Of a DNA stretch of 64,000 bases, positions 1 to 13,167 are shown in pieces. Both the position numbers and the translations under genes were made by a program. The first letter of the stretch is position 1, and each line of letters begins with the position of its first letter. This DNA is from Terriglobales bacterium (GTDB lineage Bacteria > Acidobacteriota > Terriglobia > Bryobacterales > Bryobacteraceae), in NCBI GenBank assembly GCA_027485675.1, contig JAIXQP010000042.1, positions 1 through 64,000 on the forward strand, given 5' to 3'. The notes below the pieces were generated by a model. That model saw only the letters and a program-made list of their open reading frames with translations. It made no database searches and was not told where the DNA came from.

Positions 1-346
1 ATTCTCATGGCCATGGCGTCGGCAGGGGCAGGTAATCGGCACGATGGGCCACGCCGCGGCCCGCCAGTGGGCGAGCAGCCGGCCCACGTTGGCCTCCGCT
101 TCGTAGCCCACGCCGGATCCTCAATGGCCCGCGGCAAATCGATCAGCGTGAGCGCCGGAGGCGTCACCCGATTCTCATGGCAATGGCGTCGGGCAGGGGC
201 AGGCAATAGGCACGATGGGCCACGCCGCGGCCCGCCAGTGGGCGAGCAGCCGGCCCACGTTGGCCTCCGCCTCGTTCGCCGTCGTTAGCCCACGCCGGAT
301 CCTCAATGGCCCGCTGCAGATCGATCAGGATGAGCGCCGCAGGCAT
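1..346 (-). pseudogene. Remnant of an isochorismatase-like cysteine hydrolase, broken within a tandem repeat
   Basis: The minus strand immediately after phnX opens with a start codon at 346 that overlaps the phnX stop (TGATG). It reads MPAALILIDLQRAIEDPAWA, a typical N-terminus of the isochorismatase/cysteine hydrolase family. After about 20 codons the frame is lost; the expected continuation (EAEANVGRLLAHWRAAAWPIV) appears in another frame, and the ORF then runs into a second copy of the phnX 3' end and stops at 164. A further degraded copy, whose start codon has become ACG, covers 1-170. The catalytic Cys region is not present in the window. I infer a formerly translation-coupled downstream gene of the phosphonate operon that was destroyed by tandem duplication; an assembly error is an alternative. 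Confidence 0.6.
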
Positions 347-391
347 CACCCGATTCTCATGGCAATGTCGTCGAGCAGGGGCAGGCAGTCG
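1..391. repeat. Tandem direct repeat of 170-182 bp units, running off the left edge
   Basis: Copy A is 1-170 and copy B 171-352; both begin ATTCTCATGGC and end GTCACCCG or ATCACCCG. Copy C starts at 353 but only its first 39 bp or so match, because it is the genuine 3' end of phnX. Copy B carries about 12 bp more than copy A. Each unit therefore fuses the last codons of phnX to the first 45 or so codons of the next gene. More copies may lie to the left. Confidence 0.85.
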
Positions 392-1128
392 GCCAGGCGC
401 TCGGCGAGATAGTCGGGCTGCGAGCGGCGCAGCGTCTGCTCGGCTTCGAGCGTCCGCGCGGCCCGTTCGCCGAACGAGAGCGCCCCATACTCGGCCGCCG
501 TCAGCCCCACCTCGTTGCCGCAACTCGTCAGGCCAATGGTCCACATGCCGGCGCTCTTGCCTTCGGCGATGTCGCTCGGGGTGTCGCCGATCTTCACGCA
601 CTGCGAAAGCGGATAGACGTCCAACAGTTGGGCGTTGCGAAACACCATCCACGGCGCGGGCCGGCCGCCGCCCACCTCGTCCGGGGTCACGCTCGCATCC
701 GGCGCGTAGCCGTCGCGGGCCGCCCGGCGCATCACGACGTCGAGCATCTCGCGGGTATACCCGGTCGTCGACCCGATGCGAATGCCCCGCCGCCGGCACT
801 CGGCGACGAACTCGACGACGCCCTCAATCACGCCCGAATGATGCTCCAGAATGCCCAGTTGCCGCGGAATGAAACTCTCAAACAGCGCCTGCACATCGTT
901 CTCCGATGGCGGGGCGCCGTGCCGGGTGGCCCAGGCTTCGGCCACGCGCGGCAGCGCGCAGATGGCGCGGATCTGGTCTTTCTTCAGCAGGCCCATCTGA
1001 TGGCGCGCCTCGCGCCGTTCGAGCGGCACCCCGCGCAGCGCAAAGATCTCCTGCAGCACCACCACCGGCGCCAAACAGCCATGGTCGACCGTCGTGCCGG
1101 CCCAATCGAGAATCAGGGCTTTAATCAT
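346..1128 (-). CDS. phnX: Phosphonoacetaldehyde hydrolase
   Basis: PhnX cleaves the C-P bond of phosphonoacetaldehyde to acetaldehyde and phosphate in the cytoplasm. The 260-residue product is a HAD-superfamily protein of normal length. It starts MIKALILDWAGTTVDHG, placing the nucleophilic Asp at residue 8, and the Schiff-base lysine is K49 in MGLLKKDQ, the same 41-residue separation as D12 and K53 of the Bacillus cereus enzyme. A later segment (GSTTGYTREML) and the acidic loop KIGDTPSD complete the HAD signature. The start at 1128 overlaps the stop of the upstream FAD oxidoreductase by 4 bp (ATGA), so translation is probably coupled. The longer in-frame extension lies inside that upstream gene and has no similarity. 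The C-terminus sits in the repeat at the left edge but is intact. Confidence 0.93.
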   Translation of the reverse strand: MIKALILDWAGTTVDHGCLAPVVVLQEIFALRGVPLERREARHQMGLLKKDQIRAICALPRVAEAWATRHGAPPSENDVQALFESFIPRQLGILEHHSGVIEGVVEFVAECRRRGIRIGSTTGYTREMLDVVMRRAARDGYAPDASVTPDEVGGGRPAPWMVFRNAQLLDVYPLSQCVKIGDTPSDIAEGKSAGMWTIGLTSCGNEVGLTAAEYGALSFGERAARTLEAEQTLRRSQPDYLAERLADCLPLLDDIAMRIG

Positions 1129-2252
1129 AGAGAAAGTGTCTCGGCCGCCAGCCCGAACGACAGCGTCATGCCGCTGCCGCCGGGGGCGGTGACCACCTGG
1201 ACGCCCGGCGCCGGCGCGAAGCGGCAATAAGGCTGGTCCGGATGTTTGGCGTAAACGCCGTGCCAGCGCTGCGTGATCGTCTGGTCCGGGAAGCGGGCGA
1301 AGGTCGCCAGATAGCGCAGGACCAGATCGTCAAGCTCGGGCTTATCGAAGATGTCGACCGCCAGGCCGTACTCATGCGTATCGCCGAGCGTGATCTCGCC
1401 GGCGGCGGTCTGCGAGACGAGTACGTGGATGCCCCACTGGTCGTACTCCGGCGTCTCGGCCGCGATGCGGGCCTTCAACTGCGGCAGCGAAGGGCACATG
1501 CCGAAGGAGCTGTAGAAGCGCAGCGTCAGACCGGCGGCCAGCGAAGGGCCCAACTGCCACTGGTTCGGCTGCGCGGCCGTCCGCAGCATCTGCAGCTTGC
1601 AGCGGGTGATGCCGCTCTCGGCGAAGACGGCCGGATAGAGCGTTTGGAAATCGTCGCCGCCGCAGACATACACCGTATCCACTTCCCAGGTTTCGCCGCC
1701 GGCGGTTACGCGCGGCAGATCGATGCTGGTGACGGCCGTGTTGTAGCGCAGCGTCACGCCAAGCTGCTCCGAGAGAAACGAGGGCAGCGTCCACAGCGTG
1801 ACGCGCGGGTCCACGACCACTTCGGTGGGCGACCAGAGGCCGCCGAGTAACCCCTCCGGCACCACGGCCGGGCTGCGTTCGAGCACCTGCGCCGCGTTGA
1901 GCCAGGTGACATCGAACCCCTGCGCCGGGGCCAGCGCGGCGAACTCCTGGGCGACGGTGGCTTCATCCTCCCGGTAAACCACATGCAGCGAGCCGGTGGG
2001 ATAGTGCGGCAGCTTCGCCGCGGCAATCACGTCGAGCCAGTGGCGGCGGCTGGTCATCGCCATCTGGTGCATCTTGCCGGCGGGTTGGCCCATGGGCCAC
2101 ACCATGCCGAAGTTGCGGATGGAGGCGCCCATGGCGCGCGGCGAGCGTTCGAACAGCACCACCCGTTTGCCGGCCTTGGCCGCGTGATAGGCATGGGCCA
2201 GACCCAGAATGCCGCCGCCAACAACGGCTACGTCTGCGCGGGTTTGAGACAT
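1125..2252 (-). CDS. Phosphonate-linked FAD-dependent amine oxidase (TIGR03364 type)
   Basis: A 375-residue DAO-fold flavoenzyme. The N-terminal dinucleotide motif ADVAVVGGGILGLAHAYHA binds FAD; SIRNFGMVWPMGQPAG follows at about residues 45-60, and the C-terminal APGGSGMTLSFGLA closes the FAD site. These features match the TIGR03364 family, which is known for clustering with phosphonate genes and is thought to act on 2-aminoethylphosphonate or N-alkyl derivatives. Here it sits directly before phnX with a 4-bp overlap and after an OPA-type carrier with a 25-bp overlap, so it plausibly supplies phosphonoacetaldehyde to PhnX. No phnW transaminase occurs in the window. The start MSQTRADVAV was chosen because the dinucleotide fold begins there. 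The substrate is inferred from context. Confidence 0.85.
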   Translation of the reverse strand: MSQTRADVAVVGGGILGLAHAYHAAKAGKRVVLFERSPRAMGASIRNFGMVWPMGQPAGKMHQMAMTSRRHWLDVIAAAKLPHYPTGSLHVVYREDEATVAQEFAALAPAQGFDVTWLNAAQVLERSPAVVPEGLLGGLWSPTEVVVDPRVTLWTLPSFLSEQLGVTLRYNTAVTSIDLPRVTAGGETWEVDTVYVCGGDDFQTLYPAVFAESGITRCKLQMLRTAAQPNQWQLGPSLAAGLTLRFYSSFGMCPSLPQLKARIAAETPEYDQWGIHVLVSQTAAGEITLGDTHEYGLAVDIFDKPELDDLVLRYLATFARFPDQTITQRWHGVYAKHPDQPYCRFAPAPGVQVVTAPGGSGMTLSFGLAAETLSL

Positions 2253-3487
2253 AGATCGGGACTTTCCTCCGGAACGCGAAACTTCCATTTCACCGTAAGG
2301 AGGAGTCCGCCCGCTACCGAGAGCGCAAAAAAGAACATAAACAGCGCGTCCCACCCGAAGCGCTGCACAACGCCCGCCACCAGGAACGGCGAGAGAAACT
2401 GGCCGGTGGAGCCGGTGCCGTTCACAAAGCCGGACGCCGTGGCGACGGTCTCCCGCGTCGACGAGTCCTGCACCGCGGCCCCGCCCAGCAGCGTATCCGG
2501 CCCCAGATTCAGCAGCCCGATCAGGGCGATGGACGGCACGATGATCCATGTTCCGGTGATGCCGGCCAGGGTCGGCAGCAGGCAGGCGCAGCCGAGGCCG
2601 ATCATCATCAGCGCGCCTACCGGGAAGCGGCGGCCCTGGAAGAGCTTGTCCGAGAAGTAGCCGCTCAGCACCACCCCGGCGAATCCGCCGAGTTCGAACA
2701 CGGAAGAGCTATAGCCGGCTTCGGCCGGGGTAAAGCCGAGCCGTTCGGTCAGATACACCGGCAGCCAGAACAGAAAGGCGTAGCGTGTCATCTTCAAACA
2801 AAAGTAGGCCCCGGCGATCACGCGAATGTTCGTGTTGCGGGCCACGCCCAGAAACTTCATCAGACTCTGGCGGGATTCGGCCTTGGTTTCGGTGGAGCCG
2901 GGGCCGTTGCGGACGAGAACGGAGAAGGCCACCGCCAGCAGCATCAACGCCGCGCCGGGCAACCAGGCGCCCCGCTGCCAGCTGGGGAAAAAGAGCAGTG
3001 AGCTGGTGGCGGCGAAGGTGGCGAACGTCGTAGCCAGGAAGGCGCCCAACGCGTAGTTCGTGCACCACCACCCCATCACCACGCCGCGATTGCGCGCCTC
3101 AAACCACGCCGACATGATCTTCAACAGGCCGGACCAGCCACAGGCCTGCGCCAATCCATTGATGGCCTGCAACGCAATCACCCAGGCCGTGTCCGTGTGG
3201 AAGGCCATCGCCACGCTGCTCGCCCCCGCTACGAACATGCCGGAGGTAACCACCCGCCGGGGACCGAAGCGATCCGACAGGGTGCCCATGACGAACTGGC
3301 CGAGCGAATACATCAGGCTGTATCCGAAAATGGCCGTCGCCAGTTCGTCCTTTGTAATGCCGGTGTACTGCTGCAACAGCGGCATCAGCACGCTGAAATT
3401 CTTGCGGCAAAGGTAGAAACCGGCGTAGGCAATCCAGGTGACGACGAAAATGCGGACGCGCCAAGCGTGGATTGACCCGATTGTCAT
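2228..3487 (-). CDS. MFS transporter, OPA/GlpT-UhpC-like, probable phosphonate uptake
   Basis: A 419-residue protein with about 12 hydrophobic segments. The first helix and loop (AYAGFYLCRKNFSVLMP) carry the RKNFS-like motif of the organophosphate:phosphate antiporter group (GlpT, UhpT, UhpC), and GTLSDRFGPRR is the MFS cytoplasmic loop 2-3 signature. Members exchange anionic phosphorylated compounds across the inner membrane. As the first gene of a three-gene unit with the FAD oxidase and phnX (25-bp overlap with the oxidase), it most likely imports a phosphonate such as 2-aminoethylphosphonate or an N-methylated form. The start follows a short 46-bp divergent region shared with the hydrolase gene at 3534. 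The substrate is inference. Confidence 0.85.
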   Translation of the reverse strand: MTIGSIHAWRVRIFVVTWIAYAGFYLCRKNFSVLMPLLQQYTGITKDELATAIFGYSLMYSLGQFVMGTLSDRFGPRRVVTSGMFVAGASSVAMAFHTDTAWVIALQAINGLAQACGWSGLLKIMSAWFEARNRGVVMGWWCTNYALGAFLATTFATFAATSSLLFFPSWQRGAWLPGAALMLLAVAFSVLVRNGPGSTETKAESRQSLMKFLGVARNTNIRVIAGAYFCLKMTRYAFLFWLPVYLTERLGFTPAEAGYSSSVFELGGFAGVVLSGYFSDKLFQGRRFPVGALMMIGLGCACLLPTLAGITGTWIIVPSIALIGLLNLGPDTLLGGAAVQDSSTRETVATASGFVNGTGSTGQFLSPFLVAGVVQRFGWDALFMFFFALSVAGGLLLTVKWKFRVPEESPDLCLKPAQT

Positions 3488-3533
3488 CAACCTTTGACTG
3501 TATCGCCTCCAGATTTCGAGATGATGAATCAAC

Positions 3534-4385
3534 ATGAAGAATCTGCTGCTGGTTCTCTTCTCCGCCGCGGTCGCTTGCGCGGCTCCCAAACACGTCGTCA
3601 TCATCGGGGTCGATGGTCTGAGTGTCGAAGCCTTCCGCAAGGCCGAAGTCCCCAACCTCAAGAAGCTGATGGCGCGCGGCGCCTGGACGCTGCACGCCCG
3701 CGGCGTCCTGCCCACGGTCTCAAGCCCCAACTGGATGTCCATCATCGCGGGCGCCGGGCCGGAGCAGCATGGCGTCGACTCGAACGAATGGGAGCGGTTC
3801 AACCACGCCATTGAACCCATCTGCGCGGGGCCGGAGAAGATCTTCCCCACGCTCTTCAGCCAGTGGAAGGCGCAACGCCCGCAGGCGCACCTGGCCGTGA
3901 TCCACGATTGGAAAGGCATGGGCCGCCTGGTGGAGCAAGGGTCGACCAAGGAGACCCGGCACGTGAAGGGTTCGCCGGAGGCCATGGCCGCCGCGATCGC
4001 CTATTGGAAGCAGCACAAGCCGGACCTGCTCTTCGTCCATCTCGACGATGTGGACCACGCGGGTCACGACAAAAGCTGGGAGTCGGCGGACTACGTGCGG
4101 GCCGTGGTGGAGGCGGACCGCTTAATCGGGGAGATGCTGGCCGCTCTTCCGCTCGACCAGACGCTGGTGGCGATCGTCGCCGACCACGGCGGAACGGAGA
4201 AACGGCACGGCAACCCGACGATGCGGGAGCTGGAGGTCCCCTGGATTCTCTCCGGACCGGGCGTAGCGAAGGGCCGGGAACTCACCGGACCCGTCTACTC
4301 CCTCGATACGGCGCCGACGGTGCTGGCCCTGATGGGCCTGCGGCCTCACGCCTGCTGGACGGGGCGGGCCGTACCGGTCAAGTGA
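3534..4385 (+). CDS. Exported alkaline-phosphatase-superfamily phosphodiesterase/hydrolase
   Basis: A 283-residue protein with a signal peptide (MKNLLLVLFSAAVACAAP, cleavage near residue 17). It has the nucleotide pyrophosphatase/phosphonoacetate hydrolase type of metal site: D27 in IIGVDG, the nucleophile loop LPTVSSPNWMSIIAG with Ser63 at the position usually held by Thr, DDVDHAGH at about 168-175 and VADHGG at about 217-222. It is expected to hydrolyse phosphoesters or phosphonates in the periplasm using two metal ions. It is divergent from the phosphonate carrier and its 3' end overlaps the HD oxygenase gene tail-to-tail by 40 bp. A role in freeing phosphonate from a larger molecule is possible but unproven; a general phosphodiesterase is the alternative. 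Confidence 0.82.
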   Translation: MKNLLLVLFSAAVACAAPKHVVIIGVDGLSVEAFRKAEVPNLKKLMARGAWTLHARGVLPTVSSPNWMSIIAGAGPEQHGVDSNEWERFNHAIEPICAGPEKIFPTLFSQWKAQRPQAHLAVIHDWKGMGRLVEQGSTKETRHVKGSPEAMAAAIAYWKQHKPDLLFVHLDDVDHAGHDKSWESADYVRAVVEADRLIGEMLAALPLDQTLVAIVADHGGTEKRHGNPTMRELEVPWILSGPGVAKGRELTGPVYSLDTAPTVLALMGLRPHACWTGRAVPVK

Positions 4386-4927
4386 CGGACGATCATCTCG
4401 CGGTAGGATTCGATCGGGCTGACCAGCCGGCTCGGGTCCTTGGCGAGCTCATCCCAATTCCGGAGCCGGAGGCAATCCTTTAGCTCGGGCGCCGCGCCGA
4501 AGGCCTCCGCTTCTTCGATCGACATCGGTCCGCCCTGATGCTTCAGGGTCTCGGTGCTGGCCGGAGAGAGGCGTTTGGCGTAGTTGGCGTTGGTCGTCAC
4601 CAGGTACCGCTTGGCGTCGACGTGGCCGCGGACCAGGGTCCGGAGCCGGGCGGAGAAGCCGCGTTCAGCGAGCCATTCCGCGCCGAGATCGTCGTGGTTG
4701 ATCACGCCGACCTCGCCGTGGCGAATGGCCCGCTCGTCGCTGATGTTATGGCCGATGTCATGGAGCAGGGCCGCGAGAATCAACTCCTCATCGGCGTTGG
4801 CATCGCGGGCGGATTGCGCCGCCTGCAGGGCGTGAGCCAATTGAGAGACAGCCTCGCCGTAGTAGTCGGCGTTGGCCGAGGCGGCGAGCAGGGAGATGAT
4901 TTCGTCGGCGGTCTGTTCCGGGGTCAT
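4346..4927 (-). CDS. phnZ: PhnZ-type HD-domain di-iron oxygenase
   Basis: PhnZ and TmpB cleave C-P bonds of 1-hydroxy-aminoalkylphosphonates using a mixed-valent di-iron centre. In this 193-residue protein the expected ligands are H32, H56, D57, H78, H102 and D159, each exactly two residues earlier than the published PhnZ ligands as I recall them (H34, H58, D59, H80, H104, D161). The lid residues Tyr and Glu are also present as Y22 and E25 in DYYGEAVSQLAHALQA. This supports an oxygenase rather than a phosphohydrolase. The gene lies 3 bp after ridA in the same direction. The partner 2-oxoglutarate dioxygenase (PhnY* or TmpA) is not in the window. A TmpB-like role on N-methylated substrates is possible. 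Confidence 0.85.
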   Translation of the reverse strand: MTPEQTADEIISLLAASANADYYGEAVSQLAHALQAAQSARDANADEELILAALLHDIGHNISDERAIRHGEVGVINHDDLGAEWLAERGFSARLRTLVRGHVDAKRYLVTTNANYAKRLSPASTETLKHQGGPMSIEEAEAFGAAPELKDCLRLRNWDELAKDPSRLVSPIESYREMIVRHLTGTARPVQQA

Positions 4928-4930
4928 GGG

Positions 4931-5317
4931 TTAGGCCAGGGGTTTGTAGGCGACACAGTCGATTTCGACGTGCATCGCGGGGTTGGGCATCACGGCCTGG
5001 ACGGTGGTCCGGGCCGGTTTCGCGGCGCCGAAAAACTCGCCGTACACCTCGTTCATGGCGCTGAACTCGGCGACGTCCTTGAGAAACACCGAGCACTTCA
5101 CCACGTCGGCCAGGGTAGCGCCGGCGCCTTCGAGAATCTTCTGGATGTTGGTGATGACGATGCGGGTCTCATGGCGGATATCGCCGATCTCGTACTGGCC
5201 GGTTTCGGTATTGAACGGGCCCTGGCCGCTGACATAAATGTAGTCACCGGCCCGGACGGCGTGGGAGTAGGGCCCGGCGGGCTTCGGCGCGCCGGGGATA
5301 TGGAAACGTTCGATCAT
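4931..5317 (-). CDS. ridA: RidA family imine/enamine deaminase
   Basis: A 128-residue Rid/YjgF/Tdcf protein with the characteristic sequences PAGPYSHAVRAGDYIYVSGQ near the N-terminus, the G-R/K-rich segment around KCSVFLKDVAEF, and PARTTVQAVMPNPAMHVEIDC with the conserved Arg that binds carboxylated imines. RidA proteins hydrolyse reactive enamine/imine intermediates to ketones and ammonia. It sits 3 bp upstream of the HD oxygenase and 12 bp downstream of the NYN gene. An imine-hydrolysing enzyme beside an amine oxidase locus makes chemical sense, but RidA is also a general housekeeping enzyme. Confidence 0.9.
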   Translation of the reverse strand: MIERFHIPGAPKPAGPYSHAVRAGDYIYVSGQGPFNTETGQYEIGDIRHETRIVITNIQKILEGAGATLADVVKCSVFLKDVAEFSAMNEVYGEFFGAAKPARTTVQAVMPNPAMHVEIDCVAYKPLA

Positions 5318-5329
5318 GGGAGGCTCCGA

Positions 5330-6709
5330 TTACTCCACCGGCTTGCGGGCCCGCGGGCGGCGCACGCTGGAGGATGCGGTCTTCTTGGCGGCGCTGGTGG
5401 AGGAGGAGGTGCGCTTCCGGGCCGAACTGGTGCGGCGGCCACCGGCGGGCTTCTCCTCTTCGGCCGCGGCGGGCGCGGCCTCGGCAGCGGGAGCTGCTTC
5501 GGTGGCGGACTCTTCGGCGAGCGACTCAGCCAGCACTTCGGCGGCCGAGGCGCCGGCCGCCATTTCGCGGACGGGTTCTGGCTGCGGTTCCGGCTCAGCG
5601 GCTTGTGGAGCCAGCTCCGCGCCAAGGAATACGGTCAAGCCGCGCTGCTCGTCCGGCTCCATCCGCACCATGAAGTTGTCCTGCGCGAAGTTCAGGAATT
5701 CGTTGAACTCCTGGAAGCCGTACTTCTTCATGTCGAAGTCGGCATGGATCTTGCTCATCCAGCCGGCGACGGTCTCGGCGCTGGCGCCGTCCTCGATGTC
5801 CAACTTATAGATATCGAGCACCTGGCGCAGCAGCGGCAGAGCATCATCCTTCTTATGCACCGCGCCACCGCTGGCGGATGCCGCGCTCGACAGCAGTTCG
5901 ATCGTGTACCGGCCTTCGGTGCCGTGCAGTTGAATAAAGCCGGCGCTCTTCATGCGGTCGATGAACTCGGAGAAGGCGCTGGCGCCGTAGGAGCGTTCGT
6001 TGAAGCTGGGGTCGAGCTGCTTCATCGTGCTCTTCAGGAGCCCCAGCTGCGGCTGCACGCCACGGCGTTGCAGGACGCTGAGGGCGCGTTCGACGAGCGG
6101 CATTGCCTGCGCCACTTCCAGCGGCTGCGGACGGCCCCGCCGGTACCCGCCCTGCTGCGGCGCCGGTCCGGCGGCCGGAGGGGCGGCTTGTTCGCGTGGC
6201 GGAACCGAGACGTACTTGCGTTCGGGGATCACGCGGACGTCGTCCGTCAGCAGGCTTTCATAGCTGATGAACTCGTGGCAGTTCTGCTGGAGGATGTTCG
6301 AGGTGAACGCCTTACCCCCAACGATGTAAATGGTTTTGCCGTAGGCCTTCAGCTTATTCACCAGCGGAATGAAGTCGCTGTCGCCGCTGATGATGGCGAA
6401 GGCGTTGACGTTCTTATGGGTGAAGGCCATCTCCAGCGCATCGAGGGCGAGGTTGATGTCCGCTCCGTTCTTATCCCCGCGCGGCGACGGGAGGCGTTGC
6501 ACCATCTGTACGGCGTTCTCCGCCATCTGACGGACGGCCGGCTCCTGCCGGCTCCAGTTGGCGTAAGCAAATTTTGCGACGATGTCGCCGCGCTCCTTGA
6601 GCGCATCGAGAGGAAGCGACACGTCGAATTCGCGGCGCAACGTCGATTTCACGCCGATTTCGATGTTGTCATAGTCCACGAATACGGCGATGTTTTGGCG
6701 TTCTTGCAT
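5330..6709 (-). CDS. NYN (LabA/DUF88) domain protein with two OST-HTH domains and a basic tail
   Basis: A 459-residue protein. Residues 1-165 form a NYN/PIN-like domain: NIAVFVDYDNIEIG, GADINLALDALEM and IISGDSDFIPLVNKL carry the acidic metal-binding residues of putative RNases. Two OST-HTH/LOTUS-type modules follow at about residues 195-275 and 285-365, each with the repeating pattern of a winged helix ending in a hydrophobic strand. The last 95 residues are Ala/Glu-rich and then Lys/Arg/Ser-rich (TSSARKRTSSSTSAAKK), suggesting nucleic acid binding. NYN plus OST-HTH architecture is known in bacteria with predicted RNA-related function. It is the first gene of the run NYN-ridA-phnZ, but a functional tie to phosphonates is not evident. 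An SD-like AAGGA lies upstream of the ATG. Confidence 0.85.
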   Translation of the reverse strand: MQERQNIAVFVDYDNIEIGVKSTLRREFDVSLPLDALKERGDIVAKFAYANWSRQEPAVRQMAENAVQMVQRLPSPRGDKNGADINLALDALEMAFTHKNVNAFAIISGDSDFIPLVNKLKAYGKTIYIVGGKAFTSNILQQNCHEFISYESLLTDDVRVIPERKYVSVPPREQAAPPAAGPAPQQGGYRRGRPQPLEVAQAMPLVERALSVLQRRGVQPQLGLLKSTMKQLDPSFNERSYGASAFSEFIDRMKSAGFIQLHGTEGRYTIELLSSAASASGGAVHKKDDALPLLRQVLDIYKLDIEDGASAETVAGWMSKIHADFDMKKYGFQEFNEFLNFAQDNFMVRMEPDEQRGLTVFLGAELAPQAAEPEPQPEPVREMAAGASAAEVLAESLAEESATEAAPAAEAAPAAAEEEKPAGGRRTSSARKRTSSSTSAAKKTASSSVRRPRARKPVE

Positions 6710-7885: not shown

Positions 7886-9238
7886 ATGACGACACAGCTC
7901 TCCCATCAGAACGTAGCCATCCTGGGTGGTGGTATCTCCGGCCTTGTCTCGGCCTACCGGCTCCTGCAGCAAGGGGTTGGCGCGACGATCTTTGAAGCGT
8001 CCAATGCGCTGGGTGGTCTGGGCGGAACCTTTGAATACAAGGGCGCCGTGATGGAGCAGTTCTATCACGTCATGCTGAATTCGGACGGGCCGCTGCTTGC
8101 CCTGCTCGAAGAGCTCGATCTGGCCTCCTCCATCCACTGGAAAGAGACCGGCATGGGCTTCCAATACGAAGAGGCCTTCTATCCCTTTAATACCCCGATG
8201 GACCTGCTGCGGTTCGGCGCGTTGACTATCCCCGAGCGGATCCGGACCGCCGTCGGCGCGGCCTACATCACCAAATTCGTCAAAGACGGCGCCGCCCTCG
8301 ACGGCATCACCGCCGCCGAATGGCTGACGAAGATCTTCGGCGCTTCGGTGTTCCGCAAACTCTGGCTACCGCTGTTGACCTCCAAGTTTGGCGACCGGTA
8401 TCCCACCGTGCCCGCCTACTGGTTTTGGAGCCGCCTCACCCGCGAGAAGGGCGGCGCGAAGGAAGTGAAGGGCTACGTCGAAGGTGGCTACCGCGCCATC
8501 GCCGACGCCATAGCCGAAAAGATCACGGCCATGGGCGGAAAAATTCTGTTGAATACGCCGGTGGAGGGTTTGCAGGAGACGGCGACCGGGGTGCGCGTGC
8601 AAGCCCATGGTACCTTCCTCGAGTTCTCTTCCGCCGTGTCCACGCTGCCGATGCCCCTGCTGCAGCGGATTGCGCGCGGCGAGCTGGCAACGGCGGTGCC
8701 CCACGCGAACCTGACCTATCAGGGTGTCGTCAACGTCGTGCTGATCCTGAAGGAGCGCCTGCAGCCGTACTACTGGAACGCCATCGTTAAGGAAGGCTTC
8801 CCCTTCCAGGGCCTGGTCGAGACGACGCAGGTGGTGCCGCTCGAACAGACCAACGGCCGTCATCTGGTCTACCTGATGAACTACTGCCACAAAGACAGCA
8901 ACGAGTTCCACCGGGGCGACCACGACTGGGAGTTCCAGGCCAAGAAAGCGTTGCAGGCGATGTACCCGGACTTTGATCAAAGCCTGGTGGAGGAAATCAA
9001 GGTCTTCCGCGCCCCCTATGTGGAGCCGGTTTGGCCGGTGAACTACCTCTCGGCGCGTCCGGCTTGCCGGATCGGTCAGGGTAATGTCTATTTGGCGACC
9101 ACGGCGCAGGCCTATCCCCGCGTCAACGCCTGGAACACGATGGTGGAGATCGCCTCGGAGACCGTCACGGCCATCCTGCAGGATCTGGCCAGCCGCCCGT
9201 CCGCTGTACCCGCCGCCGGTGAACTGGTAAACGCGTAG
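7886..9238 (+). CDS. FAD/NAD(P)-binding amine-oxidase-like oxidoreductase
   Basis: A 450-residue flavoprotein. The N-terminal VAILGGGISGLVSAYRL, an acidic strand end (ATIFEASNALGGLGG) and a further segment VEGGYRAIADAIAEK are typical of the protoporphyrinogen oxidase/phytoene desaturase/UDP-galactopyranose-mutase-like group. The C-terminus has the usual NVYLATTAQAYPR segment for the FAD site. An SD-like AAGGA precedes the ATG. It follows the GT2 gene by 20 bp, and such pairs commonly occur in cell-surface glycan loci, so it may oxidise or isomerise a sugar nucleotide or lipid-linked sugar. The exact reaction cannot be told from the sequence. Confidence 0.8.
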   Translation: MTTQLSHQNVAILGGGISGLVSAYRLLQQGVGATIFEASNALGGLGGTFEYKGAVMEQFYHVMLNSDGPLLALLEELDLASSIHWKETGMGFQYEEAFYPFNTPMDLLRFGALTIPERIRTAVGAAYITKFVKDGAALDGITAAEWLTKIFGASVFRKLWLPLLTSKFGDRYPTVPAYWFWSRLTREKGGAKEVKGYVEGGYRAIADAIAEKITAMGGKILLNTPVEGLQETATGVRVQAHGTFLEFSSAVSTLPMPLLQRIARGELATAVPHANLTYQGVVNVVLILKERLQPYYWNAIVKEGFPFQGLVETTQVVPLEQTNGRHLVYLMNYCHKDSNEFHRGDHDWEFQAKKALQAMYPDFDQSLVEEIKVFRAPYVEPVWPVNYLSARPACRIGQGNVYLATTAQAYPRVNAWNTMVEIASETVTAILQDLASRPSAVPAAGELVNA

Positions 9239-9247
9239 ACTGAGATC

Positions 9248-9547
9248 ATGCTTGCTCGACGTCTGGTCTGCCACGGCCTGTTCGCCGCCGCCGCCCTGGC
9301 GCAGTTTCAACCGCCGCAGACCCCGGTTACCTTTGACGGGACGCTGAAGGCCTACGACAAGAAGTTCCTGATTGTCGAGACCGCGCCGGAGCAGACCGTA
9401 CGGCTCGAGATCGACCGGAAGACGAAGCTGCTCGATGCCAAAGGCAAGTCGCTAACGAAGCCGCCCGAAGAGGGCAGCCAGGTGGCGGTCGACGGCATGA
9501 AGCGCCTGAACGGCGTGCTCGTGGCGCTCACCATTAAGGTTCTCTGA
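9248..9547 (+). CDS. Small secreted protein of unknown function
   Basis: A 99-residue product with an N-terminal signal peptide (MLARRLVCHGLFAAAALAQF, cleavage near residue 18). The mature part reads as a short beta-rich domain (VTFDGTLKAYDKKFLIVE, then VRLEIDRKTKLLD and ALTIKVL), resembling small OB-like secreted domains found in Acidobacteria. I do not recognise a family with certainty. It starts 9 bp after the FAD oxidoreductase stop and is probably co-transcribed with it. Confidence 0.65.
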   Translation: MLARRLVCHGLFAAAALAQFQPPQTPVTFDGTLKAYDKKFLIVETAPEQTVRLEIDRKTKLLDAKGKSLTKPPEEGSQVAVDGMKRLNGVLVALTIKVL

Positions 9548-9551
9548 ACCC

Positions 9552-9580
9552 TTGCGGCCTCCCGCGGAGTCTGCTACATT
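9552..9580 (+). promoter_or_regulatory. Sigma70-type promoter of the tetR gene
   Basis: TTGCGG at 9552-9557 and TACATT at 9575-9580 are separated by 17 bp. The expected transcription start near 9587 is only about 9 nt before the ATG at 9596, so the mRNA would be nearly leaderless. The -10 box touches the operator at 9578-9594. Confidence 0.6.
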
Positions 9581-9594
9581 GAACACTGTTCAAT
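9578..9594. promoter_or_regulatory. TetR operator 1 (17-bp palindrome)
   Basis: ATTGAACACTGTTCAAT is a perfect inverted repeat of two 8-bp arms around a central C. It ends one base before the tetR start codon and covers the predicted transcription start, which fits autorepression. The identical 17-mer occurs again before the pump genes at 10235-10251. Confidence 0.85.
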
Positions 9595-9595
9595 C

Positions 9596-10216
9596 ATGAT
9601 CCCGCAACGCCGCGCCGCGTATCGCGAATCTCTCCGCCGGGCCATCCTCGACGCTGCCCGGCCGCTCTTCGTCCAGGAAGGCTACGAGGCTACCTCCATC
9701 CGGGCCATCGCGACGAAGGCGGGGTGTTCGCCGGGAATTTTGTATCACTACTTCGCCGATAAGCAATCGATTCTGGCGGAACTGGTGGCGGAAACGTTTG
9801 CCATCCTCGGAACCCGGCTCAGCGCCATCCGCCGGGATGATTCTCCCGTGATGGACCGGCTCCGGCGTTGCCTGCGGACCTACATCGCTTTCGGATTGGA
9901 GCACCCGCATCACTACACTCTTTTGTTCATGAAACCGCAGAGCTGGGAAGAGAACGAGAAGGTGTTGGAGGTGTTCATGACGCAGGGCATGGACACGTTT
10001 GGTTGTCTGCGGGCCCTCAGTACCGAGGCGATGGAGGCGGGTGAACTGCGGCCGGCTATCCGCGACGGCAACGAGCTCGCGCAGTCTTTGTGGGTGGCCG
10101 TCCACGGGTTGGTGGCGGCGCAGATCGTCGTCTGTACCTTCCCCTGGGTGGAACAAACCCGCCTGGTAGACCGTTTAGTAGATGTCCTGATCGCAGGCGT
10201 GGAGCGTCGCGACTAG
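9596..10216 (+). CDS. TetR family transcriptional repressor
   Basis: A 206-residue TetR regulator. Residues 8-55 form the helix-turn-helix domain (RRAILDAARPLFVQEGYEAT followed by SIRAIATKAGCSPGILYHYF and the DKQSIL extension). The remaining residues form the ligand-binding dimer domain, with the C-terminal WVAVHGLVAAQIV typical of TetR_C regions. It presumably represses its own gene and the efflux operon that begins 53 bp downstream, because the same palindrome precedes both. The inducing ligand is unknown. The ATG lies directly next to the operator, leaving no room for a ribosome binding site; translation may therefore be leaderless. Confidence 0.92.
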   Translation: MIPQRRAAYRESLRRAILDAARPLFVQEGYEATSIRAIATKAGCSPGILYHYFADKQSILAELVAETFAILGTRLSAIRRDDSPVMDRLRRCLRTYIAFGLEHPHHYTLLFMKPQSWEENEKVLEVFMTQGMDTFGCLRALSTEAMEAGELRPAIRDGNELAQSLWVAVHGLVAAQIVVCTFPWVEQTRLVDRLVDVLIAGVERRD

Positions 10217-10234
10217 GCTTTTTTTTGCACCTTA

Positions 10235-10251
10235 ATTGAACACTGTTCAAT
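10235..10251. promoter_or_regulatory. TetR operator 2, upstream of the ABC efflux operon
   Basis: The palindrome ATTGAACACTGTTCAAT is identical to operator 1. It is followed by AGGAG at 10253-10257, 12 nt before the ATG at 10270. TTGAAC (10237-10242) and TACAGT (10260-10265) are 17 bp apart and could be promoter boxes that overlap the operator, but this pairing is weaker evidence than the palindrome. Confidence 0.85.
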
Positions 10252-10269
10252 CAGGAGAATACAGTTCAT

Positions 10270-11409
10270 ATGAGATACATCGCCTGGCAAATGTTAACCG
10301 GAGATCGCGCCAAGTATCTGGGCCTGATCTTCGCCATCGCATTCTCCACCTTTCTGATGTCGCATCAAGTCTCCATCTTCTGCGGCTTGATGAACCGAAC
10401 GGCCTCGCAAATCGACGACGTCCACGACGCCAGCATCTGGGTGATGGACGCCAAGACCCAATACCTGGACGAGGTGAAGGCGCTTACCGATCAGGATCTC
10501 TACCGGATTCGGGGCGTTGAGGGGGTGCAATGGGCGGTTCCTCTGTTCAAGGGCACCTCGCGGGCCAAGGCGCCGGACGGGAAGTTCCGCGGCGTGATCC
10601 TGATGGGTTTGGATGACGCTTCGCTGGTCGGACTCCCGCGCAGCGTCCGCCTGGGGGATCCGCGGCAACTGCGCGACCCGGAGACGATCGCCATCGACGA
10701 GACCGGCTACCGCTTCTTCTTCCCGGGTGAGCCCTATGCGCTGGGGCGGACGCTCGATCTGAACGATCACACGTTGAAGATCGTCGCCATCATCAACTCC
10801 TCGGCGCCGTTCGTGAACCTGCCGGTGGTCTACACGAGATACACCCAGGCGCGGGACCTGGTCGGCCGGGAGCGGAATCAGCTCTCCTTCGTGCTGGCGC
10901 AGGCGGCGCCGGGCGTGACGGATGCCGAAGTCACCCGGCGGATCACGGAGCGGACCGGCTTAAAGGCGTTGACGGGGAATGCGTTCGGCTGGGAGACCAT
11001 CTGGTATTACATCCAAAACACCGGCATTCCGATCAATTTCGGCATCACGGTGGTGATCGCGCTCGTCGTGGGCACGGTGGTGGCCGGCCAGACGTTCTAC
11101 CTGTTCACCGTCGAGAACCTGAAGCAGTTCGGCGCCCTGAAGGCGATCGGCGTCAGCGATTGGCGGATCGTGGGCATGATTCTGATGCAGGCGCTGATTG
11201 TCGGCGCGGTGGGCTACGGGCTGGGCATTGCGATGACGGCGGGCTTCTTCGTGGCGACGGCGGATAACCTCGACCTCCGCGGCTTCCGGATGATGCCGGA
11301 GATCATGCTCGGCACCGCGGCCGCCGTCTTTCTGATCGTGTTTTTGGCGAGCGCGGTGAGCGTCCGCCGGGTGGTGGTGCTCGAACCGGCCGTGGTTTTC
11401 CGAGGATAA
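10270..11409 (+). CDS. ABC transporter permease, FtsX/DevC-like
   Basis: A 379-residue inner membrane protein with one N-terminal membrane segment (about residues 17-38), a periplasmic region of about 220 residues, and three C-terminal segments (about 256-280, 310-335, 345-368). This is the MacB/DevC topology. NLKQFGALKAIGVSDWRIV is the conserved FtsX-domain segment contacting the ATPase. It forms the transmembrane part of a tripartite pump with the next three genes, spaced 4 bp, -7 bp and 1 bp apart. Expression is probably controlled by the TetR protein through the palindrome just upstream. The substrate is unknown. Confidence 0.88.
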   Translation: MRYIAWQMLTGDRAKYLGLIFAIAFSTFLMSHQVSIFCGLMNRTASQIDDVHDASIWVMDAKTQYLDEVKALTDQDLYRIRGVEGVQWAVPLFKGTSRAKAPDGKFRGVILMGLDDASLVGLPRSVRLGDPRQLRDPETIAIDETGYRFFFPGEPYALGRTLDLNDHTLKIVAIINSSAPFVNLPVVYTRYTQARDLVGRERNQLSFVLAQAAPGVTDAEVTRRITERTGLKALTGNAFGWETIWYYIQNTGIPINFGITVVIALVVGTVVAGQTFYLFTVENLKQFGALKAIGVSDWRIVGMILMQALIVGAVGYGLGIAMTAGFFVATADNLDLRGFRMMPEIMLGTAAAVFLIVFLASAVSVRRVVVLEPAVVFRG

Positions 11410-11413
11410 TGCG

Positions 11414-12121
11414 ATGACACAAACCGCTGTTCACTGCCGCGAACTGTGCAAGACCTTTGGCGCCGGAGAGGATGCCGTGAAGGTGCTGCGCGGCGTCAAC
11501 TTCGAAGTCCCCCGCGGGGAGATGACCTTTCTCGTCGGCCCCTCCGGCTGCGGGAAGACCACGCTGCTGAGCGTGATTGCGGGGCTGCTGAACCCGAGTC
11601 AAGGTCACCTGGAGGTGCTGGGCACGCCTCTCGCGCAACTGAAAGGGGCGAGCGCCGTCGAGTTTCGCCGCAAGAATCTGGGCTTCGTCTTCCAGCAGTT
11701 CAACCTGCTGCCGGCGCTGACGGCGGCGGAAAACGCGGCCGTCCCGCTGCTGGCCGCGGGCTGGAAGCGGAGGGCGGCCGTGGAGAAGGCCGAGACGATT
11801 CTTAGCGACCTGGGCCTGGCAACTCGCACCCGGGCCCTGCCCAATCAGCTCTCCGGCGGCCAACAGCAGCGGGTGGCGTTTGCCCGCGCGCTGATTCATG
11901 AGCCGCAACTCATCGTCTGCGATGAGCCCACCTCCGCGCTCGACGCCGAAACCGGCCATCACGTGATGGAGCTCCTGCGCAAAGCCGCCTTGCGTCCGGA
12001 CCGCGCCGTCCTGGTCGTCACCCACGATAGCCGAATTTTCCCCTTTGCCGACCGGATCGCTCACATGAACGACGGTCTGGTGGACAAGATCGAAATCAAC
12101 TCTGGAGTGCTCCCATGCTAG
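11414..12121 (+). CDS. ABC transporter ATP-binding protein, MacB/DevA/LolD-like
   Basis: A 235-residue ATPase with Walker A GPSGCGKTT (42-50), Q-loop VFQQFNLLPAL, signature LSGGQQQRVAFARAL, Walker B LIVCDEPTSALD and the switch histidine in VVTHD. It powers the pump formed with the upstream permease and the HlyD-like adaptor, whose gene overlaps its 3' end by 7 bp. Confidence 0.93.
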   Translation: MTQTAVHCRELCKTFGAGEDAVKVLRGVNFEVPRGEMTFLVGPSGCGKTTLLSVIAGLLNPSQGHLEVLGTPLAQLKGASAVEFRRKNLGFVFQQFNLLPALTAAENAAVPLLAAGWKRRAAVEKAETILSDLGLATRTRALPNQLSGGQQQRVAFARALIHEPQLIVCDEPTSALDAETGHHVMELLRKAALRPDRAVLVVTHDSRIFPFADRIAHMNDGLVDKIEINSGVLPC

Positions 12122-13167
12122 TCCGTTACGGAATGCCTGTCCTTGCGATTTTTGCCCTTGCCTTCGCGGTGATCTCCACCAACCGCGCCACCCCGAACAT
12201 CGTCCATGCCGAGCCGCCGTTACCCCCGCCGGCGCCGGCCTACGCCAATCAGCTCGGCGCCGTGGGCCTGGTGGAGGCCGCCAGCGAAAACATCGCCGTC
12301 AGCGTGCCGGTGCCCGGATTGGTCACCCGCGTGGCCGTGCAGGTGGGGGACACCGTGCAGGCCGGCCAACTGCTCTTCTCTCTCGACGACCGCGACCTGC
12401 GCGCGGAGCTGGCCCTGCGCCAGTCGGCGGTGGCCTTGGCGCAGTCGAAGCTTACCAAGCTGGAAGCGTCGCCGCGGCCGGAGGAGATTCCGCCGGCGCA
12501 GTCGCGGATCGACGAGGCGAAGGCCCAACTCGAAGACGCCGCTCTGCAGTTGCGGCTCATGGAGTCGGTGAAAGACCCGCGGGCAATTAAGCAGGAGGAC
12601 CTGTTGCGGCGGCGCCGGGCCGTCGAGAGCGCGGCGGCGCGGGTGCGGCAGGCCGAATCGAGCATGAAGCTGCTGCTGGCGGGCACGTGGAAGCCGGACC
12701 TCGAAGTGGCGCGGGCTGAACTGCGGCAGGCGCAGGCGCAGGTGGCACGGATTGAGACCGATCTCGAACGGCTGCGGGTGACCGCGCCGATCAGCGGCAA
12801 GATTTTGCAGTGCAAGGTGCGTCCGGGCGAGTATGCGGCCAGCGGGACGCTGCCGCAACCGCTCATCCTGATGGGACGCGTGGACCAATTGCATCTGCGC
12901 GCCGATATCGACGAGAAAGAGGCCTGGCGATTCGCGCCCGGCACCGAAGCCACCGCCTCCGTGCGCGGCAACGCCCAGCTGAAGTATGAGCTGACCTTCG
13001 TCCGCGTGGAACCGTACGTCGTGCCCAAAAAGAACCTCACGGGCGAAGCGACCGAGCGGGTGGATACCCGGGTACTGCAAGCGATCTATGCGCTGCCGAA
13101 AGGGGCGCAGCTCTATCCCGGCCAGCAGATGGATCTCTCCATCCGGGCCCAGGAGGCGGCGCACTAA
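12115..13167 (+). CDS. HlyD/DevB-family periplasmic adaptor
   Basis: A 350-residue membrane fusion protein. An N-terminal membrane anchor (MLVRYGMPVLAIFALAFAVI) is followed by a biotinyl-lipoyl half-domain (VPVPGLVTRVAVQVGDTVQ), a long coiled-coil hairpin between about residues 95 and 215 rich in Ala/Glu/Arg, the returning lipoyl strand (VTAPISGKILQCKVRPGEY) and a beta-barrel. It links the ABC permease to the outer membrane channel encoded 1 bp downstream. Gene order regulator-permease-ATPase-adaptor-channel gives a complete exporter. Confidence 0.9.
   Translation: MLVRYGMPVLAIFALAFAVISTNRATPNIVHAEPPLPPPAPAYANQLGAVGLVEAASENIAVSVPVPGLVTRVAVQVGDTVQAGQLLFSLDDRDLRAELALRQSAVALAQSKLTKLEASPRPEEIPPAQSRIDEAKAQLEDAALQLRLMESVKDPRAIKQEDLLRRRRAVESAAARVRQAESSMKLLLAGTWKPDLEVARAELRQAQAQVARIETDLERLRVTAPISGKILQCKVRPGEYAASGTLPQPLILMGRVDQLHLRADIDEKEAWRFAPGTEATASVRGNAQLKYELTFVRVEPYVVPKKNLTGEATERVDTRVLQAIYALPKGAQLYPGQQMDLSIRAQEAAH

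Follow-up and report, generated by a model that had tools for sequence, protein, structure and literature searches.

How does a PhnZ-type oxygenase obtain its substrate when no hydroxylase is encoded beside it? The question is raised by the window analysed here, a 64,000-nucleotide stretch from an uncultured Terriglobales bacterium (Acidobacteriota), whose first base is the start of its contig. The PhnZ of bacterium HF130_AEPn_1 (PDB 4MLM) is described as acting after the hydroxylase PhnY* (PMC10574752, PMC8177086). By contrast, the window holds no convincing PhnY* and has instead genes for an FAD-dependent oxidase (PbfD), a phosphonoacetaldehyde hydrolase (PhnX) and an MFS transporter. The initial annotation had named three possible supplies: a phosphonate imported already hydroxylated, a partner encoded elsewhere, or feeding by another enzyme such as the FAD oxidase.

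Gene order and identity of the window PhnZ

The span 4346-5317, given in the initial annotation, comprises two genes, phnZ and, 3 bp upstream of it, ridA. The features of the locus are:

1..345, minus strand: residual 5' part of an isochorismatase-like hydrolase gene (from translation and direct repeats)
346..1128, minus strand: phnX, phosphonoacetaldehyde hydrolase (TIGR01422, 319 bits, cut-off 220)
1125..2252, minus strand: pbfD/hpnW, FAD-dependent oxidoreductase (TIGR03364, 423 bits, cut-off 285.1)
2228..3535, minus strand: GlpT/PgtP-type MFS transporter, candidate importer of phosphonates (TIGR00881, PF07690; start putative)
3534..4385, plus strand: type I phosphodiesterase/nucleotide pyrophosphatase (PF01663, E 7.9e-30)
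4346..4927, minus strand: phnZ, PhnZ-clade oxygenase with an HD domain, 193 aa (TIGR03276, PDB PhnZ, metal ligands, lid and tree)
4931..5317, minus strand: ridA, Rid-family hydrolase, 128 aa (TIGR00004, 120.6 bits, cut-off 106.25)
5330..6709, minus strand: NYN/OST-HTH protein gene, upstream of ridA (PF01936, PF12872)

The PF01663 gene is convergent with phnZ, overlaps it by 40 bp and has a likely signal peptide (judged by eye). The transporter reached 203 bits on TIGR00881, under the cut-off of 407.75. The block formed by ridA, phnZ, the phosphodiesterase gene, the MFS gene, pbfD and phnX was kept in all eight relatives whose PhnZ is approximately 79-93% identical to that of the window; in one of them, L036, phnZ and the MFS gene are split in frame.

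In a phmmer search against PDB sequences, the window protein matched three PhnZ sequences (4mlm/4mln, 4n71 and 4n6w, best E 1.8e-46) and, more weakly, TmpB (6npa, E 2.6e-25). It was identical to the solved PhnZ at 83 of 176 residues (47%), and the alignment was ungapped over these 176 residues, so the offset between the two numberings is a constant two. Y22, E25, H32, H56, D57, H78, H102 and D159 correspond to PhnZ residues as had been proposed, and they provide both the metal-ligand motif H...HD...H...H...D (H32, H56, D57, H78, H102, D159) and the YxxE lid (Y22, E25). H60, K106, S124, T127, Q131 and R156 were also kept, and the single difference among the 15 positions compared (14 kept) was PhnZ Y132, which is H130 in the window protein. 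The six ligands were invariant and Y22 nearly so in a 19-sequence alignment. The Y24/E27 numbering and the ligand motif follow PMC8177086, which describes YxxE as the substrate lid of PhnZ.

None of the curated cut-offs was passed: the window PhnZ scored 199.6 bits on TIGR03276 (Phn-HD, NCBIfam; cut-off 214.6), 129.3 bits on the TmpB model of NCBIfam (cut-off 300) and 115.1 bits on NF052439 (hydroxymethylphosphonate dioxygenase; cut-off 300). The ligand motif by itself does not prove an oxygenase, and it is the identity to PhnZ, together with the lid, that carries the assignment. An HD phosphohydrolase in place of an oxygenase appears extremely improbable: the protein matches the Pfam HD family, and some bimetallic phosphohydrolases carry the six-ligand motif as well (PMC11203657), but 47% identity to a solved oxygenase, the lid and the phosphonate gene context argue against it. 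The complete ligand set, the lid and this identity support the predicted PhnZ-type C-P oxygenase of the initial annotation.

A tree of 70 rows was built with a quick IQ-TREE search, and the window PhnZ grouped with the characterised HF130 PhnZ rather than with TmpB, in a 33-row branch with an SH-aLRT support of 98 (SH-aLRT was the only support measure, with no bootstrap). TmpB, forms linked to C-P lyase and 11 members above the TIGR03276 cut-off from the phylum and order samples were among the remaining 37 rows. L160 (weakest PhnZ score) and L042 (a fragment) were left out, and the L036 PhnZ, split in two frames, entered as a part. Context labels were assigned to the rows by hand from reading their neighbours; the C-P lyase label of L130 refers to just a PhnM-like gene beside phnZ. 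In the 33-row branch, 22 rows were linked to phnX/pbfD, 10 were labelled 'other' and one, HF130, carried a hydroxylase label, taken from the literature. No hydroxylase was found within 8 kb for the 32 rows other than HF130, several of these loci ending at contig ends. Since the window PhnZ branches with HF130 and with mostly phnX/pbfD-linked rows, (R)-1-hydroxy-2-aminoethylphosphonate (R-HAEP) would be its likeliest substrate.

Another ready-made alpha-hydroxyphosphonate, for example hydroxymethylphosphonate, is an unlikely substrate. PhnZ relatives do differ in the alpha-hydroxyphosphonate that they use (PMC10574752), and NF052439 was matched, but at 115 bits this match is far under its cut-off and also under the 129 bits of the TmpB model. 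The tree unites the window protein with HF130 PhnZ, and the neighbouring genes are those of aminoethylphosphonate (AEP) breakdown.

Search for a hydroxylase in the genome and across the phylum

As initially annotated, no 2-oxoglutarate hydroxylase is encoded in the window, and the whole of its contig lacked PhyH (PF05721) and TauD (PF02668) matches. The genome-wide search for PhnY*/TmpA that had been suggested was run on an assembly of 6.59 Mb in 54 contigs, 97.4% complete, so that the absence of a partner is not absolute. It revealed a single PhnZ and no convincing candidate; a PhnY*/TmpA-type hydroxylase, as the two-enzyme PhnY*/PhnZ pathway uses, was not found encoded in this assembly. TauD-family proteins had no match anywhere in the genome. 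Four PhyH proteins exceeded the Pfam cut-off, all on other contigs. With the PhnY model NF052437 the best of them scored 57 bits; it adjoins a Gfo/Idh-like gene (by eye) and had a leucine hydroxylase as its top PDB match (E 8e-27), which says little on PhnY*. The cut-off of this model (500) is strict, as even our yardstick, a PhyH protein from a Dietzia plasmid whose gene lies immediately upstream of a phnZ homologue, reached 261 bits. No protein exceeded this cut-off across 257 genomes of the order. The top scores, 110 bits in G567 and 100 bits in G604, came from genomes that are not among the 45 bearing PhnZ, while in G052 (73 bits) and G666 (69 bits) PhnZ lay on a different contig.

A hydroxylase encoded elsewhere, either one of the four PhyH proteins or a gene in the missing 3% of the genome, might convert AEP into R-HAEP for PhnZ. 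Besides the PhyH proteins themselves, the incompleteness of the assembly and the position of the cluster at a contig start are the weak points of the observed absence. We nevertheless consider this supply rather improbable, given the distance of the best PhyH protein from the Dietzia yardstick and its Gfo/Idh-like neighbour, the lack of TauD, and the finding of the highest PhnY-model scores of the order in genomes not listed with PhnZ. In addition, the relative L029 (G017) keeps the block inside a 577-kb contig, and no hydroxylase was recognised in the 20 kb examined there.

PhnZ was found in 17 of 101 relatives, in 6 of 396 genomes sampled across the phylum and in 45 of 257 genomes of the order (own genome included); 10 of these 45 exceeded the TIGR03276 cut-off. 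Fifty acidobacterial loci were compared (the window, 16 relatives, 5 from the phylum and 28 more from the order). Their neighbours were scored with HMMs built for this analysis, with which divergent partners could be missed, and L032, where RidA and PhnZ share one frame, was placed by hand. A hydroxylase lay within 6 kb of phnZ at one of the 50 loci, while pbfD or phnX did so at 33 (both at 26; pbfD, counted alone, at 28), an MFS gene at 31, the phosphodiesterase gene at 14 and ridA at 9. Flanks of 3 kb or more on each side were available at 36 loci, of which 25 had pbfD or phnX and one a hydroxylase. A lax limit brought no additional PhyH or TauD at the acidobacterial loci; the PhyH HMM recovered two PhyH proteins of the genome that were outside its training (6e-17 and 4e-9, a small set). 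Consequently, phnZ without a hydroxylase is the norm among the acidobacterial loci sampled, and in this phylum the premise of the initial annotation that a missing PhnY* is odd fails.

Both pbfD and phnX were absent within 6 kb at 17 of the 50 loci, some of them in unrelated surroundings. Eleven of the 17 were viewed by eye on ORF calls and had mixed surroundings with no shared partner. The exception was an SDR gene, examined with Pfam in L150, that immediately precedes phnZ in two related genomes (L150 737-2112 and L152 7605-8977) and whose product could in principle act on hydroxyphosphonates. The sole hydroxylase locus, L143 (approximately 8000-13000), comes from the same order and family. 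It brings together pbfD, phnX, an MFS gene, a TmpA-like dioxygenase (356 bits, cut-off 400) and phnZ, whose product groups with the TmpB rows in the tree, and constitutes a natural test case of partner use.

Outside the phylum, 28 plasmid records had a PhnZ match, and 20 were examined, several of them unannotated and assessed by HMM only. A hydroxylase adjoined phnZ at 8 of the 20 loci (six TauD, two PhyH), phnX and pbfD were present at two, and phnZ was within or next to a C-P lyase operon at two (L121 and L124). The pairing of phnZ with a hydroxylase is thus common outside Acidobacteriota. TmpB, an HD oxygenase from the same family as the window PhnZ, belongs to the other tree branch and its plasmid relatives adjoin a TauD-type gene, whereas the window has no TauD-type gene. 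On the Nostoc plasmid L124 (5992-6552), phnZ lies within a C-P lyase operon with a PhnM-like gene and phnJ on either side. The Hymenobacter plasmid L057 carries an MFS-PhnZ pair with SusC/SusD, an alkaline-phosphatase-family gene and a PhnX-like HAD (165 bits on TIGR03351, under the cut-off); a TIGR03364 gene is located approximately 9 kb from phnZ, and no hydroxylase is annotated within 18.5 kb.

The ridA gene and the history of the locus

The initial annotation had suggested that RidA would fit a pathway that makes imines. However, of ten genomes from the same genus in which the block is missing at ridA, nine still had the NYN gene beside ridA. With one genome of another genus, this adjacency was seen at 10 of the 21 block-less RidA loci fetched. 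Six of those nine genomes had no PhnZ match at E 1e-20. The PF01663 phosphodiesterase gene was likewise near ridA without the block at six loci (L070-L075). These arrangements indicate that neither ridA nor the phosphodiesterase gene needs phosphonate genes to be present. The NYN/OST-HTH gene is outside the phosphonate pathway, because its adjacency to ridA persists without the block, and it is speculative that the PF01663 protein releases head groups of phosphonates, as its gene stays near ridA in the six block-less relatives.

RidA as a pathway gene was not taken as the main reading once the NYN neighbourhood was found without the block. All nine acidobacterial loci with ridA near phnZ belong to the window's own clade, and our literature search found no paper joining phnZ, phosphonate and RidA. 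In favour of a link between the two genes, one MAG, that of the relative G016, carries an in-frame RidA-PhnZ fusion (L032 9886-10866, minus strand, an open frame of 326 aa), and a PhnZ relic adjoins ridA in three of the nine block-less ridA-NYN genomes. The fusion and the relics suggest that the link between ridA and phnZ may be old in the genus. RidA as a pathway partner is weakly supported.

In these three genomes (G004, G010 and G014), the relic is the C-terminal part of an isochorismatase-like gene located between ridA and the phosphodiesterase gene:

L070 499-1497, L071 493-1491 and L075 499-1497, minus strand: isochorismatase-like hydrolase with a degenerate PhnZ domain

The relics matched the window PhnZ at 57, 56 and 44 bits (three-sequence search), retain at most one of the six metal ligands and have the same QQA end. 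Against L075, dN/dS was 0.30 and 0.33 in the relic part and 0.05 and 0.06 in the isochorismatase part; the relic part is under weaker constraint, with dN/dS still below 1. Given the relic beside ridA in all three genomes, PhnZ was probably beside ridA in an ancestor and decayed in this line. In the window's line, an open isochorismatase-like gene follows phnX in four of eight close relatives; in the window itself it is reduced to broken 5' pieces (1-345). Within positions 1-400, direct repeats (108 nt, 91% identical; 84 nt, 96% identical) duplicate the end of phnX and the start of the isochorismatase-like gene at the contig start. They came from a separate repeat search; a tandem repeat finder revealed no repeats in 1-1500.

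Substrate supply and significance of the cluster

Phosphonoacetaldehyde, on which PhnX acts, is the demonstrated product of PbfD enzymes; PbfD2 forms it from AEP and N-methyl-AEP, and pbfD genes other than pbfD1 are most commonly accompanied by phnX alone (PMC10590968). The TIGR03364 oxidase, called HpnW in the Achromobacter paper (PMC11203657), fits PbfD of PMC10590968 by context, phnX being present and phnW not; its equation with PbfD2 comes from this context and from that paper rather than from a tree. The oxidase and PhnX exceeded their cut-offs (423 and 319 bits), and no PhnW in the genome did so (best 184 vs. 360.8 bits). Without a PhnW above cut-off, PbfD and PhnX can form a complete AEP/N-methyl-AEP route, with no need of PhnZ.

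PbfD might also feed PhnZ by deaminating HAEP, RidA clearing the imine and PhnZ cleaving the hydroxylated phosphonoacetaldehyde. The proximity of pbfD to phnZ at 28 of the 50 loci and the single in-frame RidA-PhnZ fusion would fit such feeding. Against it, the product demonstrated for PbfD enzymes is phosphonoacetaldehyde, HAEP did not appear among the PbfD substrates that we saw in PMC10590968, and ridA keeps its NYN neighbour without the block, its proximity to phnZ being confined to the window's clade. We regard this supply as very unlikely, and a single oxidative line from HAEP through PbfD, RidA and PhnZ, with C-P cleavage free of any 2-oxoglutarate hydroxylase, as more improbable still.

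Among the three supplies initially proposed, a ready-hydroxylated substrate fits best. A partner elsewhere lacks a good candidate, and supply through the FAD oxidase is disfavoured, since the enzyme is of the TIGR03364 type and the PbfD product, phosphonoacetaldehyde, is destined for PhnX (PMC10590968). We consider it reasonably probable that PhnZ acts on an imported, already hydroxylated phosphonate, likeliest R-HAEP, in parallel to MFS-PbfD-PhnX. The alpha-hydroxyphosphonate would be taken up in hydroxylated form, and PhnZ, without a hydroxylase of its own, would convert R-HAEP and O2 into phosphate and glycine at a mixed-valent diiron centre. AEP and N-methyl-AEP would be imported and degraded through phosphonoacetaldehyde by MFS-PbfD-PhnX, and with two parallel routes the cluster would cover the aminoethylphosphonate family. 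HAEP, its enantiomer not established, is reported from membranes of Bdellovibrio stolpii (PMC12366243).

Several observations count against import of R-HAEP for PhnZ. PhnZ relatives take various alpha-hydroxyphosphonates, the 17 loci mentioned above lack pbfD and phnX, the window protein is below the TIGR03276 cut-off, and partners are present at 8 of 20 plasmid loci. The C-P lyase of the genome could serve HAEP too. This C-P lyase includes a PhnJ of 419 bits (G000:C7:137265-138074, L191).

The locus resembles several known systems. It shares with HF130 PhnZ the ligands, the lid and the tree branch. The Achromobacter cluster phnHD-hpnW-phnX, published in 2024 (PMC11203657), also combines phosphonatase, HpnW (TIGR03364) and a TIGR03276 HD oxygenase with no PhnW in the operon, so that a similar gene set has already been described; the window differs in its MFS gene, its convergent PF01663 gene and ridA, and the Achromobacter PhnHD is 30% identical to PhnZ, compared to 47% for the window protein. 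The authors of PMC11203657 remarked on the missing PhnY* in such bacteria, and that paper reports pseudomonads that combine TIGR03276 proteins with PhnW and PhnX and lack PhnY*. The PbfD2-PhnX pathway (PMC10590968) likewise has such an FAD oxidase with phnX and no phnW, and in the window PhnZ is added to it.

The helper-less phnZ is real but not exotic, being the usual arrangement in relatives. Our literature search found no published count showing phnZ without a hydroxylase as the rule in Acidobacteriota, including the characterised PhnZ clade. In surveys summarised by PMC10574752, phnZ alone serves as a gene marker; if our reading is true, such a marker would misread genomes that are unable to hydroxylate AEP. 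R-HAEP would gain a second fate besides PbfA, and, if PhnZ serves imported R-HAEP, hydroxylated aminophosphonates would be a real phosphorus source for acidobacteria.
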